A stretch of 46,644 bases of DNA from a virus: positions 1 to 46,644 of the IMG/VR virus record IMGVR_UViG_3300026097_000036; one strand, written 5' to 3'. The notes below the pieces were generated by a model, which was not told where the DNA came from, ran no database searches, and saw only the letters and a list, made by a program, of their open reading frames with translations. Shown one piece after another: positions 3,534 through 40,470 of this stretch (positions are counted from its first letter, which is position 1; each line of letters starts with the position of its first letter). The translations under genes and the position numbers were made by a program.

Positions 3534-4313
3534 TCAATGGTGGGTTATTTTGGAAAACCCATTTCTCTTCTCGATTTCTATAAAGTCATTCACAATATCA
3601 ACTATTTTTTCAATATCTGTATTTTCTACTATTCTTATGAACTTACATTTCAAGAACTGTTTTATTTCACCTTCTCGTATTAAATCCTTATCTCTTAACT
3701 TCCCGTTACGATCAAAGTGGTGTTGCTCATCAAATTCATAAACAATATTGTTTTCTTTATCATAACCATCTACCCAATAATAAAGATTTTCTATAAAATA
3801 CTCACCACCATTTTCTCCATGAATAATATTAGTATTTGTTTTAGATGAAATATAGTCAAATATTTTACACGCATTTTTATTATACATTGGAATAAACGAT
3901 GATAAGCCCAATGATTTTCTCCTTTCAATAATACTTTTTCTTATACTACGAAGACCGGCAGGTGTTTTGGGTGCTGGTTTATTACCTGGCCCAAAAATAT
4001 GTGGATTATTATTATTTTTCTTTTGTCTTTCACTTACTTTTTTTCTATATTCCATATCCCTTACAGCTTTTAACTGATTTTCTTTCATCTTTTTAAGATG
4101 TTTAGGATTTTTCATTGGACTTAAACTACCCACCTTATATTTTTTATTAGTTTCTCTTATCTTTTGACTATGTTTTTCAGTTCTTATTTTAGCATTTGGG
4201 TATTTATTTTTGTATTCTTGAACAGAAAGTGAAGAACATTTATTGAGGTGAGTTTGTGTAATTTGAAAAAGTTTTTTACCACAAACCTCACATTTTATTA
4301 TTTCTTTGTTCAT
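3534..4313 (-). CDS. Probable homing endonuclease (zinc-finger N-terminus, EDxHD/Vsr-like nuclease C-terminus)
   Basis: 259 aa. The N-terminus has a zinc-finger-like CEVCGKKL...THLNKC pattern (residues about 8-26) followed by SVQEYKNKYPNA, an arrangement seen in MucR/Ros-like finger regions of phage homing nucleases. A basic middle region contains LSPMKNPKHLKK, resembling a NUMOD3 DNA-binding motif. The C-terminal third holds VYEFDEQHHFD and then KDLIREGEIKQFLKCKFIRI, which matches the layout of the Vsr-like, EDxHD-type nucleases (conserved acidic residues and His, then a Lys/Arg-rich helix and a hydrophobic strand). Homing endonucleases of this type are free-standing selfish genes that cut related phage DNA and copy themselves in. 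It sits between the recombination nuclease gene and a fibre-like gene. A TATAAATA box in the coding direction lies at 4335-4342, about 22 nt before the ATG. The nuclease class is inferred from motifs and no activity is shown. Confidence 0.6.
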   Translation of the reverse strand: MNKEIIKCEVCGKKLFQITQTHLNKCSSLSVQEYKNKYPNAKIRTEKHSQKIRETNKKYKVGSLSPMKNPKHLKKMKENQLKAVRDMEYRKKVSERQKKNNNNPHIFGPGNKPAPKTPAGLRSIRKSIIERRKSLGLSSFIPMYNKNACKIFDYISSKTNTNIIHGENGGEYFIENLYYWVDGYDKENNIVYEFDEQHHFDRNGKLRDKDLIREGEIKQFLKCKFIRIVENTDIEKIVDIVNDFIEIEKRNGFSKITHH

Positions 4314-4483: not shown

Positions 4484-7400
4484 TTAAGAATAGTTGAGTT
4501 TACTGTATCCGTTAATTTTATCTATTTCTATTGTTTTCGTTACCATATCTCTCATTGTATCTAAATGAGAAATTACTATGATAAAATCTAAATTATATGC
4601 TAAATATGAAAACAATATACCAAGTTGCGCAAGAGTATCACTATCCAAAGCACCCATTCCCTCATCCAAAACCATAAAATTAGGCCGTGGTAGGTTAGAT
4701 ATGTTCATCAATGCAACTCGTATTGCCACCCCACTTATGAACCTCTCCATACCACTTCCCATTTCTAATGGCCATTCTCTATCTTCATATACCAATCGTG
4801 CATTGATATTCTTTCCATCTACTTGTATATTCATATTAAAGTCAACAATCTGTTGTAAGATGTTATTAACTTCATCTTGTATCATTGGAATGGTTTTTGC
4901 AATCAACTCATATGGCACACCATCTCGTTTAACTGAATCTAAATAGTATTGGTATGCTTCAAGCTTTTCTTCCAACTCTTTTGCTTCATCAATCTTTCCT
5001 TGTAACTCTTTTGTTTTGTTATCAATAGAACCGATTTCATTGTAGAGTTTTTTGATTTGATTTTGTGAATCTTCGTATTGACTTTTTGTAGTTTTTTTCG
5101 TATCTTTTAGTTCATCTATAACTTTTCGTATAGAAAGGTTTTCTTTGATTTTGTTTTCGTTGGAATAGTATTCATCAACCTTTTCATGCAATACTTGTAA
5201 CTCACCTTCAAGTTTATCAATATTAGTATTAGATTTATCAACTTCATTTTCTAACTTTTGTTTCTGTAAATCTAAACTACTACTTTCCGTTGTAAGTTCT
5301 GTGTAATCTTCGTATCTTTCTTCTAAATACGATTTTGATTCTACATCAGTGTATTCTTCTTTTCGTCCAACAAGTTTATCAGCAAGTTGTTTTTGTTCGT
5401 TGAGTTCTGTGAGAATGTTATTATATTCTTCATTGAACTTTTTGACATTATTTAGACAGGATTGGCATTCATCATTTACCTCAAAGTGTAAGTTGTTTTT
5501 TGCACTTTCTAGTCGTTTGAGTGTTTGTTGAACTTGGATTTTGTGTCTATCGATTTCACCAACAATCTCATCTCTTTCAGTTTTACGAGTCACCCACTCC
5601 TCGTAATCTTCTTCAATGTTTTTGTATTTTACAATCTTTGTATTAAGTTCAACTAATCTTTTTTTGTGGTCTTTGAGTTTTTCTTCATCATCTCGTTTAT
5701 CAATCTGCCATTGAACTTTCTGGTCTTCCTTATCTTTTATGTTGTGATTGATTTGTTCTATGTCTAAACTTTCATCAACACTATGTAGTTTTTCATATTC
5801 TTTTTCAAGTAAATCATCTAACTCATCAAGTTGTTGTTTAAGTGTGAGTTCAGTTTCTTCACTTTCTTTTACAACCTTTTCTAAATCACTTTTTGTGATT
5901 TCAAGATTAGCTAACTCTTCAGTAAAGTCCTCTCGTTTGAACTTTCGTAGTAATGCGTTTGTTTCTCGTATTTCATCATTTCCAACTTGATAGAGTTTAT
6001 CAAAGATGTTTAATCCCATTAGTTGAGCAAGTAAATCTTTTCGTTCACTCTGTGATTTATCAATAAAGACAGAGTTATTGCCTTGTAATGATAAACAAGT
6101 AAAGATGAAATCTTCATATGATCCTAAATACTGACGGATAACAGATGATGTGTCCCTTCGTTGTTCTCCATTTAATGATGTCTTCACTCCATCTTCTTCT
6201 TTCCAAAACTCAATATCAACTTTGATGTTCCCTCGTTTTTGTCGTCTGCCTGATTTCTCAATAAAGTAATCAATATTATCAATGCGGAAATGGAACTTGG
6301 AATGAAAGTCATTTTTTCTGTTATTAACAATATGGTCTGCTTTAAATGCTCGACTACACTTATCAAATATACAATATGATAGTGCATCAAAGACAGATGA
6401 TTTACCACTTGTATTAGGTGCAAATAATCCAAGTATTCCGTTCATATCCGTAAAGTCAATCACATTATCTTCACCATATGAAAACATATTACTGAACTCA
6501 AACTTTATGGGAGTCCAACGAATATTACGGACAACTTCTTCATCAGGTATTTTGGTATTGAGTTCTCTGTTGATATCTTGGATTTGTCCTATGATATCTT
6601 CATCAAGATGTGGGTAGTTTCGTTCTACATAATCTTTGATAAGCCCGTTTTGATGTTCGGGATTTTGGATGTTTTCATAATGAATACTATTTTCTCTATC
6701 ACCTGTTTTTTGTTTGGAAAGTGTATCCGTTCGAATGATCGTAAACTCATCTACTTTATACTTCTTCCGTATATCTTTCAGTGCTTTTTTAAGGTCAGCA
6801 CTATCAGTATTAGTAATCTTTACTCGTAGTCGTGGTTTTTTAGGCATATCATCCACAACAGGAACTTTACCATCAATAACATCTAATGTGTAATACCCAT
6901 ACTCATTTTCTATCTCAACAAACTCACTCTGTTTTGTTTCTACATCCCATACCAACATACCATGTCCGTTGAGATTTTCCCCATGATTCTGCTGTATGAG
7001 TGATGCGGGATATGCAATCGTTTCTTCATCATTTAGATACTGAAAGGAGTGGATATCTCCTAATAAGAACATATCATATCCTTCCATCATATCTACGGTC
7101 ACTTTGTTATTGTAGATAGAGAATCCTGCATCAGTTCTTGCACTATTTACAGGCCCGTGATATAAACCAATCTTTTTATTGTTTGTCTTTACATCTTTTG
7201 CTCTAATATAACTTTCTTCTTCATCGTAAATACTCCATACTACAAAATCAACATCACCAAAGTTATACACACCACTATCTTTAAGGTAATGTAGTTTCTT
7301 GTTGTTTAGTGAGTTTACAATAGGTGATAATACATCAAGTCGGTAGGTATTGTTGAGGTTGCAGTCGTGGTTACCTGTAATAATGATGGTCGGACAGAGT

Positions 7401-7624
7401 TTTGTTAGTTCGGTGAAAAAGTCCTTCGTCATATCCACTAACTCGGGGGACATATCAGTTTTGGAGTGTGCTATATCTCCTGCAACTACAATAAGTGAGT
7501 TTTGTGTTTTTCTACTTTTGATTTCTTTGTAAAGGTTGGAAAATACTTTACGATATTCATTATGTCTTTTCAAGTTACGGATGTGAATATCCGCAATGTG
7601 AAAAATCTTATCTACTTTGGTCAT
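4484..7624 (-). CDS. Fused Mre11-Rad50 (SbcD-SbcC; T4 gp47-gp46-like) recombination nuclease/ATPase
   Basis: 1046 aa in one continuous frame. Residues 1 to about 330 are a calcineurin-like metallophosphoesterase of the Mre11/SbcD/gp47 type: D12 and H14 in HIADIHIRN, then VVAGDIAHSK, IITGNHDCN, LYHGPV and LLGDIHSF supply the metal ligands. From about residue 370 the protein becomes a Rad50/SbcC/gp46 ATPase: Walker A APNTSGKSS (residues 402-410), a long Glu/Lys-rich coiled coil broken by a zinc hook C720-Q-S-C723, an ABC signature-like SGMERFISG, and Walker B/D-loop VLDEGMGALDSD near the C-terminus. In T4 and bacteria these are two proteins forming a complex that processes DNA ends for recombination-dependent replication. 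Here they are one chain with a linker around residues 340-370. The start codon overlaps the primase stop as ATGA, so the two are translationally coupled. All key motifs of both halves look intact. Confidence 0.93.
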   Translation of the reverse strand: MTKVDKIFHIADIHIRNLKRHNEYRKVFSNLYKEIKSRKTQNSLIVVAGDIAHSKTDMSPELVDMTKDFFTELTKLCPTIIITGNHDCNLNNTYRLDVLSPIVNSLNNKKLHYLKDSGVYNFGDVDFVVWSIYDEEESYIRAKDVKTNNKKIGLYHGPVNSARTDAGFSIYNNKVTVDMMEGYDMFLLGDIHSFQYLNDEETIAYPASLIQQNHGENLNGHGMLVWDVETKQSEFVEIENEYGYYTLDVIDGKVPVVDDMPKKPRLRVKITNTDSADLKKALKDIRKKYKVDEFTIIRTDTLSKQKTGDRENSIHYENIQNPEHQNGLIKDYVERNYPHLDEDIIGQIQDINRELNTKIPDEEVVRNIRWTPIKFEFSNMFSYGEDNVIDFTDMNGILGLFAPNTSGKSSVFDALSYCIFDKCSRAFKADHIVNNRKNDFHSKFHFRIDNIDYFIEKSGRRQKRGNIKVDIEFWKEEDGVKTSLNGEQRRDTSSVIRQYLGSYEDFIFTCLSLQGNNSVFIDKSQSERKDLLAQLMGLNIFDKLYQVGNDEIRETNALLRKFKREDFTEELANLEITKSDLEKVVKESEETELTLKQQLDELDDLLEKEYEKLHSVDESLDIEQINHNIKDKEDQKVQWQIDKRDDEEKLKDHKKRLVELNTKIVKYKNIEEDYEEWVTRKTERDEIVGEIDRHKIQVQQTLKRLESAKNNLHFEVNDECQSCLNNVKKFNEEYNNILTELNEQKQLADKLVGRKEEYTDVESKSYLEERYEDYTELTTESSSLDLQKQKLENEVDKSNTNIDKLEGELQVLHEKVDEYYSNENKIKENLSIRKVIDELKDTKKTTKSQYEDSQNQIKKLYNEIGSIDNKTKELQGKIDEAKELEEKLEAYQYYLDSVKRDGVPYELIAKTIPMIQDEVNNILQQIVDFNMNIQVDGKNINARLVYEDREWPLEMGSGMERFISGVAIRVALMNISNLPRPNFMVLDEGMGALDSDTLAQLGILFSYLAYNLDFIIVISHLDTMRDMVTKTIEIDKINGYSKLNYS

Positions 7625-8544
7625 ACAAATTGTAACTTAACAAGTTCAGAAAAATCTGTTTGTTTTGCGTGTGATAATAGTTTAGTGACTTCTTTAGAAC
7701 CTAAGTCATTTGGGTCTTTACTTCCTAATGAAACAACATAGGTATTGATATGTTGATCTTGTAATTTTTTAGTAATATCAAGTGCTTCTGATTTCGCATC
7801 TTTATCTAACATAATATACACATCTTTTACACCCTTTTCCAAAATCTTATCAAATAGTTTAGATGGAAGTTGTTTCCCTAATAGTGGTATAGCGTTTCGT
7901 TTCGTTGCCATCGCATCAAACATACCTTCTACTAATACCAATGGTAAATCATAACTAATGGTATTCTCAAAGATAACTTGATTCCGTGAAATTGGTGGGT
8001 TTTTATACTTCATACCTGATTGGTAGTAGTTACGAGCAACAAAGTAATTGAGTTTTCCACTTTCATCATACGATGGTATAATAATGTAGTTTTTGTATGT
8101 TCCTTCCGAACAATAACCAATGTTGTATTTGATTACATCATCACGACCAATACCTCTTGCTTTTAGATAGTTTACTACATTCTTTGTTTCATAGTTATTA
8201 GGTGCTTCCGTCAAAGGTATAAAGTGTTCGGGTAATGAAAAGTATATTTCAGTTTCTTCTTCTGTATTCTTTGGATTATACTTCTTTTCTCCGGTAATCT
8301 TTCGTAGTCGGATAAATATACTATCATCACTATTCAATGATTTGAATAATGGATAAAGTGATTTACCTTTGGAGTGACATACCCAACACTGCCACTTCTG
8401 TGTATCAAGGTTAACTGCTAACTTCTTCTTGTGGTGATGGCAGAACGGACAATGAAAAGATACTTCATCGTGTCCGTGGTTGGAATATGATCCTAATACT
8501 TCCGAAAGGAGTTGTAATAACTTTTCTTTGATATTGTTATTCAT
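7621..8544 (-). CDS. DNA primase (CHC2 zinc finger plus Toprim domain)
   Basis: 307 aa. The N-terminus has a zinc-binding primase finger, with C32-P-F-C35 followed by W-Q-C53-W-V-C56, as in DnaG/gp4-type CHC2 domains. The middle carries the RNA polymerase-type core, and the Toprim fold is recognisable from LVLVEGMFDA (catalytic Glu) and YIMLDKDAKSEA (DxD metal-binding motif). No helicase domain follows, so this is a stand-alone primase that would make RNA primers for the lagging strand, as T4 gp61 does with helicase gp41. It overlaps the next gene (fused Mre11-Rad50) by 4 nt. A short palindrome, GGAAATATTTTCC, lies about 15 nt upstream of the ATG and may be a regulatory or chance feature. Confidence 0.88.
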   Translation of the reverse strand: MNNNIKEKLLQLLSEVLGSYSNHGHDEVSFHCPFCHHHKKKLAVNLDTQKWQCWVCHSKGKSLYPLFKSLNSDDSIFIRLRKITGEKKYNPKNTEEETEIYFSLPEHFIPLTEAPNNYETKNVVNYLKARGIGRDDVIKYNIGYCSEGTYKNYIIIPSYDESGKLNYFVARNYYQSGMKYKNPPISRNQVIFENTISYDLPLVLVEGMFDAMATKRNAIPLLGKQLPSKLFDKILEKGVKDVYIMLDKDAKSEALDITKKLQDQHINTYVVSLGSKDPNDLGSKEVTKLLSHAKQTDFSELVKLQFV

Positions 8545-8580: not shown

Positions 8581-8994
8581 TCAATCTTCAATATCTCTTG
8601 GATACCACTTACCCAATATATTAGAGTTAAAGTATTCTGATTGCTTTTCTAATACACCAAGTTGAAACTGATACTTTGTTTCTAAATAACTTAAATACTT
8701 TTTAGTTTTTGCAAAGTCAATGATTTCTCTGTGGAACTCATTTTGTTTATTTTCTTTTAATAACTCTTTTATCCCTTCATGAGAACCATAGTATGTTTTC
8801 CAATCACTTTCTACATATTCCACTCGTTTTCTTTTGTATCCTTTCAGTGGTGGTCGTGTTTTTTTGTGTTTAAGGGTTTTCTTTCCTATGTATTTTTTTC
8901 CCGTCGGAATATGTGTAATTTCATATACAAAACCAACTGCATCACTAGGCATATCATCGATTGATGATATTTCTGAATCTTTGTATTTCCACAT
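8581..8994 (-). CDS. GIY-YIG-like nuclease-domain protein
   Basis: 137 aa. Residues 21-37 show the two-strand GIY-YIG signature in degenerate form (GFVYEITH...GKKYIGKK), followed by W...YYGSH and a downstream ETKYQF segment with the Glu expected in this fold. Small stand-alone proteins of this kind are frequent in T4-like phages, where some are homing nucleases and others have unknown roles. The lack of an obvious extra DNA-binding domain suggests a non-homing function, but that is inference. The stop is 36 nt upstream of the primase ATG, and the start abuts the end of the preceding structural gene (8994), so it probably belongs to the same transcript. Confidence 0.7.
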   Translation of the reverse strand: MWKYKDSEISSIDDMPSDAVGFVYEITHIPTGKKYIGKKTLKHKKTRPPLKGYKRKRVEYVESDWKTYYGSHEGIKELLKENKQNEFHREIIDFAKTKKYLSYLETKYQFQLGVLEKQSEYFNSNILGKWYPRDIED

Positions 8995-19586: not shown

Positions 19587-20611
19587 TCAACTAATTTAAA
19601 GACAAATCCATTATCAACGATTTGATATAAATCTGTTCCATCATCGATTTGAAATAATATTCTGTAATATCGTTCTGCTTCCCAACCTGTAAAATCTTGG
19701 TTGAAGTAGTTTCCGTTAGAATCAACTGATAGTGTGGAGTTATCATCAAACGGAACAATAACATCTTCTGTCACATTATCAACAATAGAATAAGATGAAC
19801 CCGTCGGAAGATATGAAACTGTTGAGTATACAGAACCCGTCCCATAGGTAAGTGTTGGGAATTGTTCTCTGACGTGTAATCTAAACTTATATTTCTTATC
19901 TACTTGATATTCTTTCCGTAAAGATTTTACTGTAATAAATGAATCTTCATCATTAAGTTCTGTTAATGAACCAGTTACAATTGATGAGTCATCCCACTTT
20001 ACTGTTAGTTTTGGTCTGTATATTGTATTTGTTTCTGACGAAAAAGAATTGATTTCACCATAGTTATCCGTATCTGTTTCGTAACTTCCACTGAACTTAA
20101 CAATGAATCCATAATTAGGTATTGTTCCACTTATATGTGCATCTACAATATCAGTTACATCAAACGATATATTTTCCGTTCGAGTATTAAATGTTTGTGT
20201 TGATGAATAATCATCATTGAAGTCACCACCATTTGTATCCCATACACTCCCACTTAAGTAATCACGGTATGTGTAAGATACACCTGTTGTTGTTTTGGGG
20301 TTGTCTTGTCTTTTACCAAGACCCATATCCCAACTCTGTGAAACAGGATGAGTAACTAATACAAACTCTGATCCTAATTCCTTTAATCGTGTTGTAGATA
20401 AGTCAAGTGAAAATGTTGGATTTGTAATTGTTCCGTTGGAAAGTGAAGATGATACATTTGTATAATCAAACTCAATAAGAATACGAGAATGTTTATCTAT
20501 CTCACTTGTTTTGTATTTGAATAAATCCAATATTGCATCAATACCAGTATTCTGGTTTTGGAAGTCAGAATAAATTGATGCATCTTTTGAACTTGTTACG
20601 AAAAATCTCAT
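19583..20611 (-). CDS. Baseplate-region protein with DNRLRE/CBM-like jelly-roll fold
   Basis: 342 aa. The N-terminal two thirds follow the pattern of DNRLRE/CBM96-type jelly-roll domains: SSKDASIYSDF, then SRILIEFDYTN, later ISFDVTDIVDAHIS and YGFIVKFSGS. Such folds often mediate carbohydrate contact or act as structural adaptors. The C-terminal third reads FRLHVREQFPT and ends in a beta-rich segment. It overlaps the gp6-like gene's stop by 4 nt (ATGA), indicating coupled translation. In T4, gp6 is followed by gp7 and gp8, but I see no direct similarity to either, so only the fold and the baseplate context are claimed. Confidence 0.6.
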   Translation of the reverse strand: MRFFVTSSKDASIYSDFQNQNTGIDAILDLFKYKTSEIDKHSRILIEFDYTNVSSSLSNGTITNPTFSLDLSTTRLKELGSEFVLVTHPVSQSWDMGLGKRQDNPKTTTGVSYTYRDYLSGSVWDTNGGDFNDDYSSTQTFNTRTENISFDVTDIVDAHISGTIPNYGFIVKFSGSYETDTDNYGEINSFSSETNTIYRPKLTVKWDDSSIVTGSLTELNDEDSFITVKSLRKEYQVDKKYKFRLHVREQFPTLTYGTGSVYSTVSYLPTGSSYSIVDNVTEDVIVPFDDNSTLSVDSNGNYFNQDFTGWEAERYYRILFQIDDGTDLYQIVDNGFVFKLVE

Positions 20612-22464
20612 CTTACTTTTCCTCTAATATCTTGATTGGGGAATTTGACTTCAAATACAGAAGGTTCAACTGATGGATATATTACTTTATTACGGATTGC
20701 ACTTTGTATTGGATAATACTTGTTTGAATAGTTTCCGTTTCTATCTGTAAGATTTCTTAATACCAAATCACTAACAGTTCTAACACCATCAATATTTGCT
20801 ATCTGAAGTTCTAAGTCCGAAAGATATATTGGTTGGTTGAAATCAAGTTTTGAAATATCAAAAAACTTTTTAACTGCTTCAATTGCTTTTAATAATACAG
20901 TGTTTTTATTGTATCCTTTGTGAACGGAAATCTCAAAGTCAACTCCAATGTTTACAATATAACCATCAAGTAAGTTTACACCATCTGTTAATAACCTAAA
21001 CTCATTTAAATATGTAGATAAATTTTGTTTAGTTTGTGTATTCAGTGTTGTTAAATTTCCATTAATATCATACCCAAGTAAATACAAATCAATTGTTGAT
21101 TGTGGTTTATTATCATTTTGTTTTGGTTCATGTTTTTTAGCAAACACTTTTGTAATATTACCAAACTTACTTGGCATTGATAATACACGAGCTTTATAAT
21201 CTTGTGCAGTCACACATCTTTTTTGTGTTGAAAAGAATTGAAGTGCGTTCTGTCTTATCTGTTCACTTGATGGTATACCATCACCACCTGTTGCTTTCTC
21301 TTCATTAGTCACACTCAATGTTGTTCTTATTTGATTGAGTGTAGATATTTGACCTGTTGATAAATTAGATGTATCATTCTCTAATACAACTTCACTTATA
21401 TTTACCAAATCATTTTGTGGAACATTACTTTCAATACCACCACCTACCGTATATCGTATAGTTAATGTAGTATTAGAAGGAACTTTACCATATGTTTTAG
21501 AAGTTGAGAAAGATGCAGGATCAATAGCAAGTTCCGTTGAATTAGTATTGTTATCAATTTGAGTAAGTGCTGCTATAATTTCTTCATCGTCCGCATCAGT
21601 TGTTCCACTTCCAAACTGAATCTGTTGTTTTAAGTTTTTATTAACTCTAGTGATAAATCTTCTTGGAACTCGTTGTAGTCGTGGTTGATAAAATGGTTGT
21701 TCTGTCGCAGTTGATAGTTCAACATCCTGAATAATATTATCTTGTGCTAAATAATCAACTTCATAGTATGTGTTATTATCTGAATCGATTACCGATAAGA
21801 TTTCGATTACATTAGTATCAGGTAGTTCAATCGTTAAAAATTGTTGTGGATCACCTACTTCAAATGTAAATGTCTTTTCAGTTCCTGCTACAACAGGTAC
21901 ATCTCTGTAATATTCTAATAAATAAAATGTTGGAACTCCACCTTCTTCTTGAAATACTGATACATACTCACTTAAATCAGATAAACTTTCCATATCAGAA
22001 AAATCTATTGTTTCAAGTGTTCTAAACACAACATCTGGATTTTGTTCAGATGTTATCTTCATATTTGATGCTATTTTCAATGCAAATGTGAAATCAGGAT
22101 TGTTTGTTCCATCGTTTGGTAATAACTGATATACTTTTAATGATGTAGTTGCTCCTGAACTCAAAGGTATTTTGTATCCAAGTGCTTGTGAAAGTGAAAC
22201 AATATTTTTTGTTTCTGATGCGTGTGTTAAAATACTTTCTTTGAGGTTATAGTCAATATTATATGAAAGAACATCACCTGCATAGGATACAAGTTCAATA
22301 AACATATTACCAATACTATTATCGGTAAAGTCATTGTATGTATTTGGAAAGTAAGTTTTAGAAAAATCTATAAGTTTTTGGCGGAAAGAACTAAAATCCT
22401 TTGCCAGTAGATTTACATCTTTTCCTTTTTTACTAAAATCTTTGTTGATTGATGTAATAGCCAC
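20608..22464 (-). CDS. Baseplate wedge protein, T4 gp6-like (baseplate J family)
   Basis: 618 aa. The start is GTG with CAGGA about 10 nt upstream. The N-terminus (LAKDFSSFRQKLIDFSKTYF, then IGNMFIELVSYAGDVLSYNI) is the hallmark of gp6/baseplate J-like wedge proteins. The central region has QNALQFFSTQKRCVTAQDYK and the C-terminal region a LSDLELQIANIDGVRTV segment, again as in this family. T4 gp6 is 660 aa, so the length is normal. gp6 dimers form the ring that ties the wedges together around the hub. It follows the gp25-like gene by one base, the usual wedge gene order. Confidence 0.9.
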   Translation of the reverse strand: MAITSINKDFSKKGKDVNLLAKDFSSFRQKLIDFSKTYFPNTYNDFTDNSIGNMFIELVSYAGDVLSYNIDYNLKESILTHASETKNIVSLSQALGYKIPLSSGATTSLKVYQLLPNDGTNNPDFTFALKIASNMKITSEQNPDVVFRTLETIDFSDMESLSDLSEYVSVFQEEGGVPTFYLLEYYRDVPVVAGTEKTFTFEVGDPQQFLTIELPDTNVIEILSVIDSDNNTYYEVDYLAQDNIIQDVELSTATEQPFYQPRLQRVPRRFITRVNKNLKQQIQFGSGTTDADDEEIIAALTQIDNNTNSTELAIDPASFSTSKTYGKVPSNTTLTIRYTVGGGIESNVPQNDLVNISEVVLENDTSNLSTGQISTLNQIRTTLSVTNEEKATGGDGIPSSEQIRQNALQFFSTQKRCVTAQDYKARVLSMPSKFGNITKVFAKKHEPKQNDNKPQSTIDLYLLGYDINGNLTTLNTQTKQNLSTYLNEFRLLTDGVNLLDGYIVNIGVDFEISVHKGYNKNTVLLKAIEAVKKFFDISKLDFNQPIYLSDLELQIANIDGVRTVSDLVLRNLTDRNGNYSNKYYPIQSAIRNKVIYPSVEPSVFEVKFPNQDIRGKVR

Positions 22465-33078: not shown

Positions 33079-33098
33079 AGTAGTTTATTTAGTTATTG

Positions 33099-33171
33099 TG
33101 AACCGGGTGGGGCTCGAACCCACGACCAACTGGTTAAAAGCCAGTTGCTCTACCAGCTGAGCTACCGGTTC
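33099..33171 (-). tRNA. tRNA-Lys (anticodon UUU)
   Basis: 73 nt. The acceptor stem GAACCGG/CCGGTTC pairs fully, the anticodon stem ACTGG/CCAGT encloses loop CTTTTAA with anticodon UUU, and the T-arm GTGGG/CCCAC encloses TTCGAGC. The discriminator is A and CCA is not encoded. UUU reads AAA/AAG, the most used Lys codons in this A-rich genome. Confidence 0.95.
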
Positions 33172-33177
33172 ATTGTG

Positions 33178-33253
33178 TCGAGGTGGTAGGATTTGAACCT
33201 ACGTACTCTACATCCCAAATGTAGCGAGATAAACCTGACTCCTCTACACCTCG
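33178..33253 (-). tRNA. tRNA-Pro (anticodon UGG)
   Basis: 76 nt. Acceptor CGAGGTG/CACCTCG, anticodon stem CTACA/TGTAG with loop TTTGGGA, which places UGG as the anticodon, and T-arm GTAGG/CCTAC. C1 and a UUUGGGA loop are typical of bacterial tRNA-Pro. The D-arm is slightly long. No encoded CCA. Confidence 0.92.
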
Positions 33254-33259
33254 TATATG

Positions 33260-33333
33260 CGACTCGTAGGGGACTTGAACCCCTGACCTCGGCAGTGACA
33301 GTGCCGCGTTCTGACCAACTGAACTAACGAGCC
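33260..33333 (-). tRNA. tRNA-Asp (anticodon GUC)
   Basis: 74 nt. Acceptor GGCTCGT/ACGAGTC (one G-U pair), D-arm GTTC/GAAC, anticodon stem CGGCA/TGCCG with loop CTGTCAC (anticodon GUC), T-arm AGGGG/CCCCT. The discriminator G is the identity base expected for tRNA-Asp. No encoded CCA. Confidence 0.95.
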
Positions 33334-33338
33334 GTTTG

Positions 33339-33410
33339 TACTCGGTACGGGATTCGAACCCGTGCTACTGCCGTGAAAGGGCAGCGTCCTAACCACTAGA
33401 CGAACCGAGC
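33339..33410 (-). tRNA. tRNA-Glu (anticodon UUC)
   Basis: 72 nt and first in the array. Acceptor GCTCGGT/ACCGAGT, D-arm GTCT/GGAC, anticodon stem CTGCC/GGCAG with loop CTTTCAC (anticodon UUC), T-arm ACGGG/CCCGT. No encoded CCA. Its own promoter lies directly upstream. Confidence 0.95.
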
Positions 33411-36483: not shown

Positions 36484-37407
36484 TTAATTATTGAGAGGAG
36501 CTTTTATTTGTCCGTCAGATTTATAATCAACCAATTCAACATCAAAGTCACCCATTATAAGGTCGACATTGGATAGTGTAACTGATGGTAGTTCATATTC
36601 ATTATTATTGAGTTGTTCTTTAACAGCATCAATATGGTTTTTATAGATGTGTGTATCTCCTAAACTTCCAATTAAATGGCCTGGTTTATAACCTGTTTCT
36701 TCACACAACAATAATAGTAGTAACCCATAACTTGCGATATTAAACGGAAGTCCTAAAAACACATCCACACTTCGTTGTGTCCACATTAACGATAGTTTAT
36801 CATCACTCACATAACATTGAAACCCATAATGACATGGTGGTAGTGTCATGTAAGGTAAATCTGATACATTCCACGCGTTCACCATCATCCGTCTACTATC
36901 ACGATCATTTTTTATTAATTGAATAAGGTCTCGTAGTTGATCGGTTGATGAAGTTGCCACCATACCATCATCTAACTTTTGGCTTTCTATTTCCCAGTTT
37001 CTCCATTGTTTTCCATATATTGGGCCTAAATAACCCCACATATTATTAAACTCATCATCATCCATTATCTTTTGGATAAACTCTTTTTGTGACAGTGGTG
37101 GTTCTTCTAAGTCATAGTTGTATACTCGTTCATATAGTTTGTATGCATCACCATTCCAAATGTTACAACCATTATCTATCAAATATCGTAAGTCCGTTCT
37201 TCCTCTTAGAAACCATTTGAGTTCCGTTACCATTGCCTTAAACGCCATCTTCTTTGATGTAAGAAGTGGGTATCCTTCACTCATATCATGTCGGAACATA
37301 TACCCAAAAGTAGATAGTGTCCCCGTCTGTGTTCTATCCCCTTTTTCTACACCATTATCAAGGATGAACTGACATAACTCTTTGTATTTTTTATCCAATG
37401 TATTCAT
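36484..37407 (-). CDS. thyA: Thymidylate synthase
   Basis: 307 aa. Full-length ThyA: GDRTQTGTLSTFGYMFRHDM at the N-terminus, WNGDAY, the WGYLGPIYGKQWR folate/dUMP region, SRRMMVNAWNVSDL, catalytic Cys192 in LPPCHYGFQ, RSVDVFLGLPFNIASYGLL, and GSLGDTHIYKNH. It methylates dUMP to dTMP with methylenetetrahydrofolate and suits an AT-rich genome. The ATG overlaps the stop of nrdA (TGATG), so it is coupled to the reductase genes. This is the TS-A type, not ThyX. Confidence 0.96.
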   Translation of the reverse strand: MNTLDKKYKELCQFILDNGVEKGDRTQTGTLSTFGYMFRHDMSEGYPLLTSKKMAFKAMVTELKWFLRGRTDLRYLIDNGCNIWNGDAYKLYERVYNYDLEEPPLSQKEFIQKIMDDDEFNNMWGYLGPIYGKQWRNWEIESQKLDDGMVATSSTDQLRDLIQLIKNDRDSRRMMVNAWNVSDLPYMTLPPCHYGFQCYVSDDKLSLMWTQRSVDVFLGLPFNIASYGLLLLLLCEETGYKPGHLIGSLGDTHIYKNHIDAVKEQLNNNEYELPSVTLSNVDLIMGDFDVELVDYKSDGQIKAPLNN

Positions 37408-39113
37408 CAGCCTTCACATGCAATGCATTGCAAATCATTTAGTTGTAATTTCTTCCGTGAAAACGCTTGTGCGGAATTCATAGAGTGTTGGTAGTATAAC
37501 GTCTTAACTCCAAGTTGCCATGCATCAACCAACAACTTATTTATTTCCTTCACTGATAAATCAGGTGGAATCATAATGTTAAGTGATTGTGATTGATCGA
37601 TATAATCTTGTCGGATAGCCGCTTGATTGATAATGCTACTTTGGTTGATTTCCGCAAAAGTTCTAAACACATCTTTTTGATGGTCGGTTAAAAACTCAAG
37701 ATGTTGAACTGAACCATCGTGTTTCTTTATACTATCCCATGTATCTTTATTATCTTTACCAAGTTCTTTCAGTAAAGTTTTTAAAACAGGGTTCTTTACA
37801 GTCACTTTCATTTTTGCCATATCTTTCACATAACAGTTACTCCAAATAGGTTCAATGGATTGTGATACTTGACCTAAGATAAACGCGGAACTTGTGGTAG
37901 GTGCAATAGCGTTTAGTGTAACATTTCTTCTACCATACCCCTTCAAGTATTCGGGTTCTCCAAACAGTTCACCAAGTTCTTTACTAGCTTGATATGATTT
38001 ATCCTGTATGAGTTTGAATACTTCTACATTTAGTTTAGCGGTTTCACGAGTATCAAATGGTAAATCTCTTTTCTGTAATAAAGAATGCCACCCCAATACA
38101 CCAAGACCAAGTGCTCGTTGTCTTTTTGCAAAGTTGTATGCTCTTTCCATAAAGTCAAAAGCTCTTCTACCTTCTGGTGTTCCGTTATCTCTAATAGATT
38201 CTAACTTGGTTAAAAACTCGGTGACTACACTATCTAAAAAGTAAGTAAGAACTTCTACTGCATCTGTATCCTTCCACTCATCGTAATGTAGTAAGTTCAT
38301 AGAAGATAAGACACATACAAATGATTCTTCTGTGTTGTCCGATAACGCAATTTCCGAACATAAGTTAGAGTGTGTAATCTTCACACCTCTATCTTTGTAT
38401 ACCTCTGGTGCTTTATTATTTGTAGTGTCCGTAAACATAATGTAAGGATACCCAATCTCACCTCTTCGTTGGATTACTTTTGCCCACAACGCTCGTTTTT
38501 CTTCATCACCTTCAATCATCTGATTCATAAACTCATCGGATACTGTAACTGCGTGAGTAAGATCTTGAATAGGTGCACCTTCTGTTCCAATATCTAAGAA
38601 CTCCATTGCATCAGGATGGTCTAATGGTAAGTAAGGTGAGAATCTACCCCTACGAGTTGCACCTTGTGAGATGTTATCAACCATCGCTTCAAACAGATTC
38701 ATGAAGTGAACTGCACCAGGTGCTTCACCATTATCCGTAACAGGTGCACCTCTTCCTCGCAAGTTTCCAAAGTATCCACTTGTTCCGCCACCCATCTTAC
38801 TCATCTCACCAACTTCGGATGCGGAATACAAAATACTTTCTACATTATCTTCGATATATGATCCAAAACAAGATACTGGTAATCCTCGTTTCTTTCCGTA
38901 GTTAGCCCAAACTGGTGATGAAAGTGAATACCAACCACGACTCATATAATCATAGAACTTGTCGGAAAATCCTTCAATTCCTAATAAGTTTTCTGCGTGG
39001 TCTGCAATAGTTTTAATTCTCTCTACTGGTGATTCTCCTTTACTAAGATATCCTCGTTCTAAGAATGTAATAGATTCATCAGTAATCCATTCGAATGGCT
39101 TACGGTTACTCAT
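37407..39113 (-). CDS. nrdA: Class I ribonucleotide reductase, large (alpha) subunit without ATP-cone
   Basis: 568 aa. The three active-site cysteines can be matched: C82 (LPVSCFGSY), C252 (HSNLCSEIAL) and C267 (FVCVLSSMNL), corresponding to E. coli C225, C439 and C462. GGGTSGYFGNLRGRG is the specificity-region loop. The C-terminus ends CIACEG, the flexible CxxC tail that re-reduces the active site. The protein is about 200 residues shorter than E. coli NrdA because the N-terminal ATP-cone is absent; that domain is found instead on NrdB encoded just upstream. It makes deoxyribonucleotides from ribonucleoside diphosphates. It follows nrdB by 19 nt and precedes thyA with a 1-base overlap. Confidence 0.95.
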   Translation of the reverse strand: MSNRKPFEWITDESITFLERGYLSKGESPVERIKTIADHAENLLGIEGFSDKFYDYMSRGWYSLSSPVWANYGKKRGLPVSCFGSYIEDNVESILYSASEVGEMSKMGGGTSGYFGNLRGRGAPVTDNGEAPGAVHFMNLFEAMVDNISQGATRRGRFSPYLPLDHPDAMEFLDIGTEGAPIQDLTHAVTVSDEFMNQMIEGDEEKRALWAKVIQRRGEIGYPYIMFTDTTNNKAPEVYKDRGVKITHSNLCSEIALSDNTEESFVCVLSSMNLLHYDEWKDTDAVEVLTYFLDSVVTEFLTKLESIRDNGTPEGRRAFDFMERAYNFAKRQRALGLGVLGWHSLLQKRDLPFDTRETAKLNVEVFKLIQDKSYQASKELGELFGEPEYLKGYGRRNVTLNAIAPTTSSAFILGQVSQSIEPIWSNCYVKDMAKMKVTVKNPVLKTLLKELGKDNKDTWDSIKKHDGSVQHLEFLTDHQKDVFRTFAEINQSSIINQAAIRQDYIDQSQSLNIMIPPDLSVKEINKLLVDAWQLGVKTLYYQHSMNSAQAFSRKKLQLNDLQCIACEG

Positions 39114-39132
39114 ATTTCGGTAAGTTTAGGGT

Positions 39133-40377
39133 TTAAAATAAATCGTCAGCAGTAACTGATTTCTGACGCTTGGTGTAGTTGATACTTCGTTTGTTGAAAA
39201 AGTCAGTATGCTTTGTGGCAAGAATTTCATCATCAAACCATTCTGTTTTTTCCAATAACTTTTCATCCACATCAAAGATAGATTCAATACCAATCTCATT
39301 TAGTGAACGATTAAATCGGTGTTTGATAAACTCTAATGTTTGTTCTTTTGTTAAGAACTCCATATCACCTGATTCAAACATCCAATCAACAATCTCTCTT
39401 TCTGCATCCCATGCTTCAATTGTCGCTTGTTTCAAGTCCGAAACAAGTTGGTCTGTCCACCACGATGGGTTTTCTTTCTTAATGGTGTTGATTAAATCAA
39501 ATCCAAACTTAGCGTGGATATCTTCTTCTTTGGATGTAGCTTCAACTGCGTTGGAAATACCCTTCAATGCGTTTTTGAACTTATTGAAAGACATGATAAC
39601 TAAAAACTGTGAGAATAATGAAACATTTTCAACGAACATAGAAAACAAAATAACTGATTCAAAGTAATCTTGATTCTCTGTTTCTTTCGATTGTGCTATA
39701 ACATTCTCTAAATACTTAACTCTCTTACGAATAGCAGGAACATCCATTAGTGTTTCAAACTCACTGTTAAGTCCTAAAATTTTGATAAGATTTGAATATG
39801 CATCGGCGTGTCTGACTTCTGATTCAGCAAAAGTTGCACCTACATTACCGATTTCAGGTTTTGGCATTTTCTTATAAATGTCTCCCCAAAATGTTTTGAC
39901 CGCAACCTCAACTTGTGAGATGGCTAACATGGCTCGTGTTACAACTTGTTGTTCTTCTTCTGTAAGTGTAACCTTCATATCCTGAACATCGGAGTTGTAA
40001 TTAAACTCTGTATGAACCCAGTATGAGTGTCTAATAGCATCTACATATTCTGCAAGATTTGGGTATTCATACGGTTTCAAATTTCTCCTCTTTTTAAAAA
40101 TATCTGTTCTATCTTTATCTCGTTTAATGATATACTCTCTTGCCACATCATTCAACCCATGATTCATCAATTCGTTTTCTACCATATCATGGATATCATC
40201 CACCGATGGTATTTTTGTTTCATCAATAAAAAGTGATTCGGTTACTTCTCTTGTTATTTCTTCCGCCATTTTGAAATCAATTTTTTCTGTCTTTTCCATT
40301 GCCTTCAAAACCGCTCGTAAAATTTTGGTAGATTCAAACTGATGTTTGTCACCATTTCTCTTTATCACATATTTCAT
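39133..40377 (-). CDS. nrdB: Class I ribonucleotide reductase, small (beta) subunit with N-terminal ATP-cone
   Basis: 414 aa from the ATG at 40377, which has GAGAG 7 nt upstream; an in-frame ATG at 40404 would add nine residues. Residues 1 to about 95 are an ATP-cone (MKYVIKRNGDKHQFES, then SVDDIHDMVENELM and AREYIIKRDKDR), the regulatory domain normally carried by NrdA. The remainder is a ferritin-like R2: metal ligands in QVEVAVKTFWG, E187-V-R-H190, a Glu in FVENVSLFSQF and a Glu/His pair in EEDIHAKFG. Tyr194 occupies the position of the E. coli radical Tyr122 (four residues after the His), so this is a tyrosyl-radical enzyme. In studied NrdB-linked ATP-cones, dATP drives beta tetramers and turns the enzyme off. 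A terminator lies upstream, so the operon has its own start. Confidence 0.93.
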   Translation of the reverse strand: MKYVIKRNGDKHQFESTKILRAVLKAMEKTEKIDFKMAEEITREVTESLFIDETKIPSVDDIHDMVENELMNHGLNDVAREYIIKRDKDRTDIFKKRRNLKPYEYPNLAEYVDAIRHSYWVHTEFNYNSDVQDMKVTLTEEEQQVVTRAMLAISQVEVAVKTFWGDIYKKMPKPEIGNVGATFAESEVRHADAYSNLIKILGLNSEFETLMDVPAIRKRVKYLENVIAQSKETENQDYFESVILFSMFVENVSLFSQFLVIMSFNKFKNALKGISNAVEATSKEEDIHAKFGFDLINTIKKENPSWWTDQLVSDLKQATIEAWDAEREIVDWMFESGDMEFLTKEQTLEFIKHRFNRSLNEIGIESIFDVDEKLLEKTEWFDDEILATKHTDFFNKRSINYTKRQKSVTADDLF

Positions 40378-40470
40378 AGAACTCTCAAATTTATATCTTA
40401 TCATAATATTTTAGGTGTAGATAAATACAATATATATCTTCAAATTTAAACCAAAATTTGAAAATTTAAT

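Follow-up and report, generated by a model that had tools for sequence, protein, structure and literature searches.

A probable single-chain Mre11-Rad50 enzyme of the Mimivirus R555 type in a large aquatic myophage

We analyzed a stretch of viral DNA of 46,644 nucleotides (IMG/VR record IMGVR_UViG_3300026097_000036, hereafter the window), in which a single gene on the minus strand (4484..7624) encodes both an Mre11 (SbcD) and a Rad50 (SbcC) half. From sequence comparison and structure modeling it is highly probable that a large aquatic myophage here encodes a genuine and conserved SbcCD enzyme with Mre11 and Rad50 in a single chain, which belongs to the fusion type known from Mimivirus R555. 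This kind of fusion is already known and adds no new class of machine: in 2011, Yoshida, Claverie and Ogata (PMC3175470) described Mre11/Rad50 fusions from Mimivirus R555, a Bacillus phage, plasmids and cells. A preliminary description of the window had implied that the fusion was novel, which does not stand, given that the domain order appears in that publication and that a single chain is the usual state in the phage family considered here.

Domain layout and catalytic motifs

The gene begins with ATG and is one open frame of 1046 aa with no internal stops in the ORF listing. Its domain order, read from the sequence and from an AlphaFold model (mean pLDDT 82.5, pTM 0.52), is nuclease, capping domain, helix-loop-helix (HLH), short linker and Rad50. 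Pfam Metallophos (PF00149, residues 6-192, E 2.6e-9) and AAA_23 (378-607, E 7.5e-11) both fall in this frame, and the SbcC-like PHROG phrog_77 spans residues 276-1045 (E 4.9e-41, 142 bits). Model residues 4-298 align with the SbcD nuclease and capping structure 7dog_A (Z 25.6, rmsd 2.9, 273 residues aligned), and residues 370-1046 with the SbcC head 7yzo_D (Z 29.2, rmsd 3.8, 351 aligned). The ORF listing, family matches and structure alignments thus bear out the proposal of the preliminary description that one frame holds a complete metallophosphoesterase and a complete Rad50; the zinc hook (C720/C723), Walker A, Walker B and signature motif that it named were all found, the signature in a variant form.

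From the N-terminus, and all on the minus strand, the chain begins with the metallophosphoesterase (Mre11/SbcD) domain (residues 1-241, 6902..7624), identified by PF00149, by structure and by a motif table of 83 fused proteins, followed by the capping domain (residues ~242-298, 6731..6901), whose limit is that of the alignment with the SbcD structure. A probably flexible stretch (residues ~299-321, 6662..6730) leads from the capping domain to the HLH, and it is here, at 302-315, rather than at the fusion joint, that model confidence falls below a pLDDT of 50. The putative Rad50-binding HLH (residues 322-357, 6554..6661) is assigned by the position of two predicted helices (322-336 and 342-357) and not by a match to a solved HLH, its role being taken from PMC3175470. 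Between it and the first Rad50 strand of the model (369) lies a fusion linker of 11 residues (358-368, 6521..6553), and junction and linker residues are conserved among relatives. The Rad50 half comprises an N-terminal ATPase lobe (residues 369-538, 6011..6520; AAA_23 and structure), a predicted coiled coil (residues 539-898, 4931..6010) and a C-terminal ATPase lobe (residues 899-1046, 4487..4930; motif table and structure). The zinc-hook motif CQSC (720-723, window 5456-5467) supplies the CxxC, with predicted coiled-coil arms of similar length on either side. As a natural one-chain version of the enzyme with short coiled coils, the protein would be a convenient single construct for structural work.

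All five phosphoesterase motifs are present (ADIHI 11-15, GDIAH 49-53, GNHD 84-87, LYHG 154-157 and LGDIHS 188-193). Across the 83 fused proteins of the motif table, the metal-site motifs DxH, GD, GNHD and H are kept in all or nearly all; 82 of the proteins have GDxxH, which reads GDIAH in the window, and all 83 have GDIH. The Rad50 half carries Walker A GLFAPNTSGKSS at 399-410, the signature motif SGME at 957-960, Walker B at 982-989 and the H-loop at 1018-1022. The Rad50 signature usually takes the form SGGE or SxGE, and that of T4 gp46 is SFSEGE; Met stands in place of the usual second Gly across the fused family and also in phages pT24 and PTm1, the PAU protein has SGMQ, and the signature pattern found no match on MA9V-1. 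We also considered the motif V Asp as a hallmark of fusion and ruled it out, given that the split enzyme of phage PR1 has it and the fused PAU protein does not. On sequence grounds, the replacement of His by Asp in motif V and of Gly by Met in the signature leaves nuclease and ATPase activity unproven.

The single chain among relatives and its gene neighborhood

When viral contigs were scanned with the whole protein, relatives were found in at least 558 of 600 stretches examined, and the frame was open through the entire match in all 80 of the best relatives that were taken (~40-78% identity, 74 with the stop inside the locus). Because whole-protein ranking could favor fused genes, we also scanned with the Rad50 half and with the N-terminal part of the nuclease, each of which, being one half only, brings no bias towards the fused state. 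Over the three scans, relatives numbered at least 558 of 600, at least 567 of 600 and at least 573 of 599 stretches, with the best 80 kept from each, a selection beyond which split relatives could be missed. Among the best 80 of the Rad50-half scan, 78 loci were new, with 71 single chains, 5 broken elsewhere and 2 cut by contig ends; the best 80 of the nuclease scan gave 70 single chains (67 by pattern, and L029, L249 and L240 by frame length), 8 broken elsewhere and 2 cut by contig ends. Taken together, the 237 locus entries (overlapping sets, the best of the matches listed) comprise 220 single chains, 13 genes with a break within the nuclease domain and 4 that are cut, with none split at the Mre11/Rad50 joint; seven entries lacking one pattern are counted as single chains, their nuclease and Rad50 motifs sharing one frame. 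Reduced to 143 distinct sequences by a 90-base word, the figures are 134 single-chain, 8 broken elsewhere and 1 cut. We looked for the situation in which all close relatives carry two genes and did not find it, the single chain being usual among them, and the search for the same domain order elsewhere that the preliminary description had proposed found it in viral contigs and in cultured phages.

These counts bear directly on the possibility that an error of sequencing or assembly, or an isolated frameshift joining two neighboring genes, produced the fusion. Such an artefact does exist: Listeria phage LMTA-57 is annotated with a 1009-aa recombination exonuclease "fusion" (L004:2851-5880), where phage LMSP-25 has two genes (L008:1737-4767), and over ~3030 bases the two loci differ by no mismatch and a single one-base gap. 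The LMTA-57 fusion is likely a sequencing error or a fresh mutation, and we ruled it out as independent support on account of that one-base difference. For the window gene, however, all 80 best relatives and 134 of 143 distinct sequences have an open junction, the other nine being broken elsewhere or cut, linker and junction residues are conserved, and the coding sequence is intact in cultured phages. An artefact therefore has virtually no chance of being the explanation and is already refuted for the family; as judged from independent assemblies with an open junction, the window fusion is not an assembly error.

An exact-peptide scan of viral contigs with the window protein alone found no relative, because patterns taken from one divergent sequence are too specific; alignment-based scans gave hundreds. 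Plasmids yielded three partial matches, none over more than 80% of the query, and a scan of bacteria and archaea (84,980 species, each represented by one genome) yielded four loci (L097-L100) on metagenome-assembled (MAG) contigs of 7-20 kb, which are most likely mis-binned phage DNA. Among the matches listed, the closest relative shares 78% identity over 531 residues and the others less than 48%. In terms of these alignments, the window protein is a divergent new member of a large and well-spread family of aquatic phages.

Directly upstream lies a DNA primase (Toprim) gene (7621..8544, minus strand) whose stop overlaps the start of the fusion (ATGA), and there is no obvious ribosome site in the bases before the fusion's ATG. 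The two features together suggest that the fusion is translationally coupled with replication genes. By tblastn on 80 loci, a primase homologue is directly upstream in 76 of the 78 with at least 1000 bp of upstream sequence, and is lacking in 2. The fusion and primase pair is flanked, at 3534-4313 and 8581-8994 (both minus strand), by a 259-aa ORF that resembles a homing endonuclease, with no family match over the cut-off, and a SegE-like GIY-YIG endonuclease (PF19835, E 5e-31). Elsewhere the record carries genes for a baseplate wedge subunit, thymidylate synthase and both ribonucleotide reductase subunits, as well as four tRNA genes (20608-22464, 36484-40404, 33098-33410), which identify it as belonging to a large myophage. 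A RecA-family gene occurs in 10 of 12 large records with the fusion, and the 2 without a match may be fragments; Endonuclease VII (PF02945), considered as a partner, was found over the cut-off in none of the 12. The fusion is probably the phage's only Mre11, since the SbcD model phrog_100 matches the fused or broken gene and nothing else, save for a weak match to a 319-aa frame in one record (G013).

Relation to R555, jumbo-phage fusions and split enzymes

According to PMC3175470, R555 keeps its nuclease motifs with two exceptions, the third Asp of GDxxD being replaced by His and the His that matches His206 of P. furiosus by Asp; the same paper argued from short metagenomic reads that R555-like genes belong to aquatic phages, and reported phage primases among the neighbors of R555 homologues on ocean scaffolds. 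The window protein has both active-site substitutions as described there (GDxxH and GDxH), and is like the R555 type in its domain order, in keeping the capping domain and HLH, in its primase neighbor and in belonging to an aquatic virus. Its linker of 11 residues is within the 9-12 that the paper expects. It differs in length (1046 aa versus 1351 aa for R555) and in its source, a tailed phage that has genes for a baseplate. In a structural search of viral proteins (BFVD), the first five ranks are proteins of giant viruses (Tupanvirus, Harvfovirus, Yasminevirus, Catovirus and Terrestrivirus; 20-27% identity), the best being mimivirid, with Tupanvirus at 27% identity and E 3.6e-75; pT24 comes at rank 10 with 15% identity. 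Our assignment to the R555 type is based on the substitutions, the architecture, the structural matches and the primase.

Among named phages, Microcystis phage Mel-JY01 has a full-length single chain (WWT39521.1, annotated "AAA domain containing protein") with 39% identity over its whole length. As in the window, the primase is upstream of a full-length fusion, but a small ORF lies between the two and a DNA methylase-like gene follows downstream. The Mre11/Rad50 fusion is thereby placed in long phage contigs and in at least one cyanophage in culture, which makes it accessible to expression and assay. More distant full fusions occur in Tenacibaculum phages pT24, PTm1 and PTm5, Sphingomonas phage PAU and Chryseobacterium phages MA9V-1 and MA9V-2. 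They have the same domain order in one coding sequence of ~1300 aa (those of pT24, PAU, MA9V-1 and PTm1 were each read as a single CDS), and their PHROGs family is phrog_35725, which has 1376 positions and is annotated as a metallo-phosphoesterase; in contrast to the window protein, they belong to a separate, distant clade with a longer coiled coil, and primase does not adjoin the fusion within the stretches read. The T4 gp47/gp46 pair and its homologues in Herelleviridae, T5-like phages and Kyanoviridae share the enzyme components, the motifs and the inferred role, but are encoded by two genes where the window has one frame.

We built trees of 34 sequences for the nuclease half and the Rad50 half separately. 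The window protein, its aquatic relatives and the broken copies form one clade in both (support 91/97 for the nuclease and 99/100 for Rad50), and the jumbo-phage fusions group with LR756501 in a second (98/95 and 100/99). The split genes of T4, Kyanoviridae and Herelleviridae fall outside the window clade in both trees. In the nuclease tree PR1 stands beside the window clade with weak support (81/71), and the rows with long branches (PR1, Moorella and T4) are of unsure placement. The sequences may reflect one fusion event or two.

Proposed working, rival functions and broken variants

In canonical complexes, the HLH of Mre11 grips the root of the Rad50 coiled coil, and in T. maritima ~28 Å separate the Mre11 C-terminus from the Rad50 N-terminus, a gap that 9-12 residues span (PMC3175470). 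With the HLH on the Rad50 root and the gap bridged by a short linker, the fusion therefore joins ends that are already neighbors. By analogy with SbcCD and Mre11-Rad50, two chains would dimerize as in the canonical M2R2 complex, through their nuclease domains and Rad50 heads, and each HLH would dock on the root of the coiled coil to which it is joined; we infer this docking in cis, since the model, at a pTM of 0.52, does not position the two halves reliably against each other. ATP-driven opening and closing of the Rad50 heads would gate the nuclease, and DNA ends would be trimmed to 3' single strands for a RecA-type recombinase. As with T4 gp46/gp47, the enzyme may serve recombination-dependent replication and repair, and perhaps degradation of host DNA. 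The suggestion that covalent fusion fixes the stoichiometry loses its force here, because canonical complexes are already 2:2 and a 1:1 chain changes nothing. Nor does the fusion appear to limit repositioning of the nuclease, as had also been proposed: the HLH (322-357), already on the Rad50 root, is what the 11 residues join, and the probably flexible 302-315 stretch precedes it, so that the nuclease would keep its usual tether and move as freely as usual.

Other functions have to be weighed against this one. The PADLOC model of LmuB (PDLC03859) matches the Rad50 half (E 4.4e-30, 103 bits) and Lamassu structures are among the Foldseek PDB matches, as might be expected of a defense or counter-defense ATPase-nuclease rather than a replication or recombination enzyme. 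Some such cross-match is, however, expected because LmuB is itself Rad50-like. The match to the SbcC-like phrog_77 is the stronger of the two (142 bits), a complete nuclease of the SbcD type is present along with its capping domain, and primase adjoins the gene in nearly all relatives; we consider a defense role very unlikely. In Lamassu, the LmuB ATPase goes with an LmuA effector gene and an LmuC partner gene; the window's neighbors, as scanned with Pfam and PHROGs, showed primase, GIY-YIG and structural genes. The Asp in place of the canonical His of motif V, along with GDxxH in place of GDxxD, could instead mean that the phosphoesterase half is degenerate or re-purposed, no longer a DNA nuclease, and that the protein is mainly a DNA tether. 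We regard this as improbable as well, given the conservation of DxH, GD, GNHD and H in all or nearly all of the 83 proteins, the established ability of Asp to bind metal, the same Asp in exonuclease subunit 1 of Providencia phage PR1, a split enzyme, and the retention of the motif V His in the fused PAU protein.

In a marine clade of 11 distinct contigs (L156, L166=L180, L172=L179, L174, L176 and L181-L186), a break immediately behind motif V interrupts the Mre11 domain, and the gene reads as three overlapping ORFs (e.g., L179:5019-9241). These encode a 234-aa piece that ends after motif V with a tail of ~30 aa, an inserted ORF of ~311 aa, and an 866-aa piece with the rest of Mre11 and Rad50. 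The inserted ORF is modeled as a GT9 heptosyltransferase-like fold (3tov_A, E 2.7e-8, mean pLDDT 77.6). At the same site, the 484-kb phage LR756508 (L002:3953-8178) has a 305-aa ORF with TnsA-like and HNH-type matches, as would be expected of a homing endonuclease. Homing endonucleases are known to have split other phage genes, Aeh1 nrdA and T4 topoisomerase, with function retained (PMC2988022). As causes of the breaks, a group I intron was rejected, Rfam at the gathering threshold giving only the window's four tRNAs, and a split intein is improbable, the tails of ~30 aa on the N-terminal piece and ~20 aa on the C-terminal piece being short for one by usual intein sizes. Tentatively, and with the odds somewhat against it, the Mre11 of R555-like phages may be both fused to Rad50 and broken in its own catalytic domain, with the 234-aa and 866-aa pieces of the marine clade, re-cut after motif V around a translationally overlapping glycosyltransferase-like gene, reassembling into a working nuclease; with mimivirid proteins as the closest structural matches, giant viruses might then have acquired R555 from a reservoir in aquatic phages.

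One further copy (L177:865-5031) is a 1388-aa fusion with an in-frame insert of ~337 aa directly after GNHD. The insert matches the splicing domain of inteins (E 1.5e-7, short of the curated cut-off), and this copy thus appears to carry an intein-like insert in its active site. With the broken and intein-bearing variants, one could probe directly where in its chain Mre11 tolerates a break.
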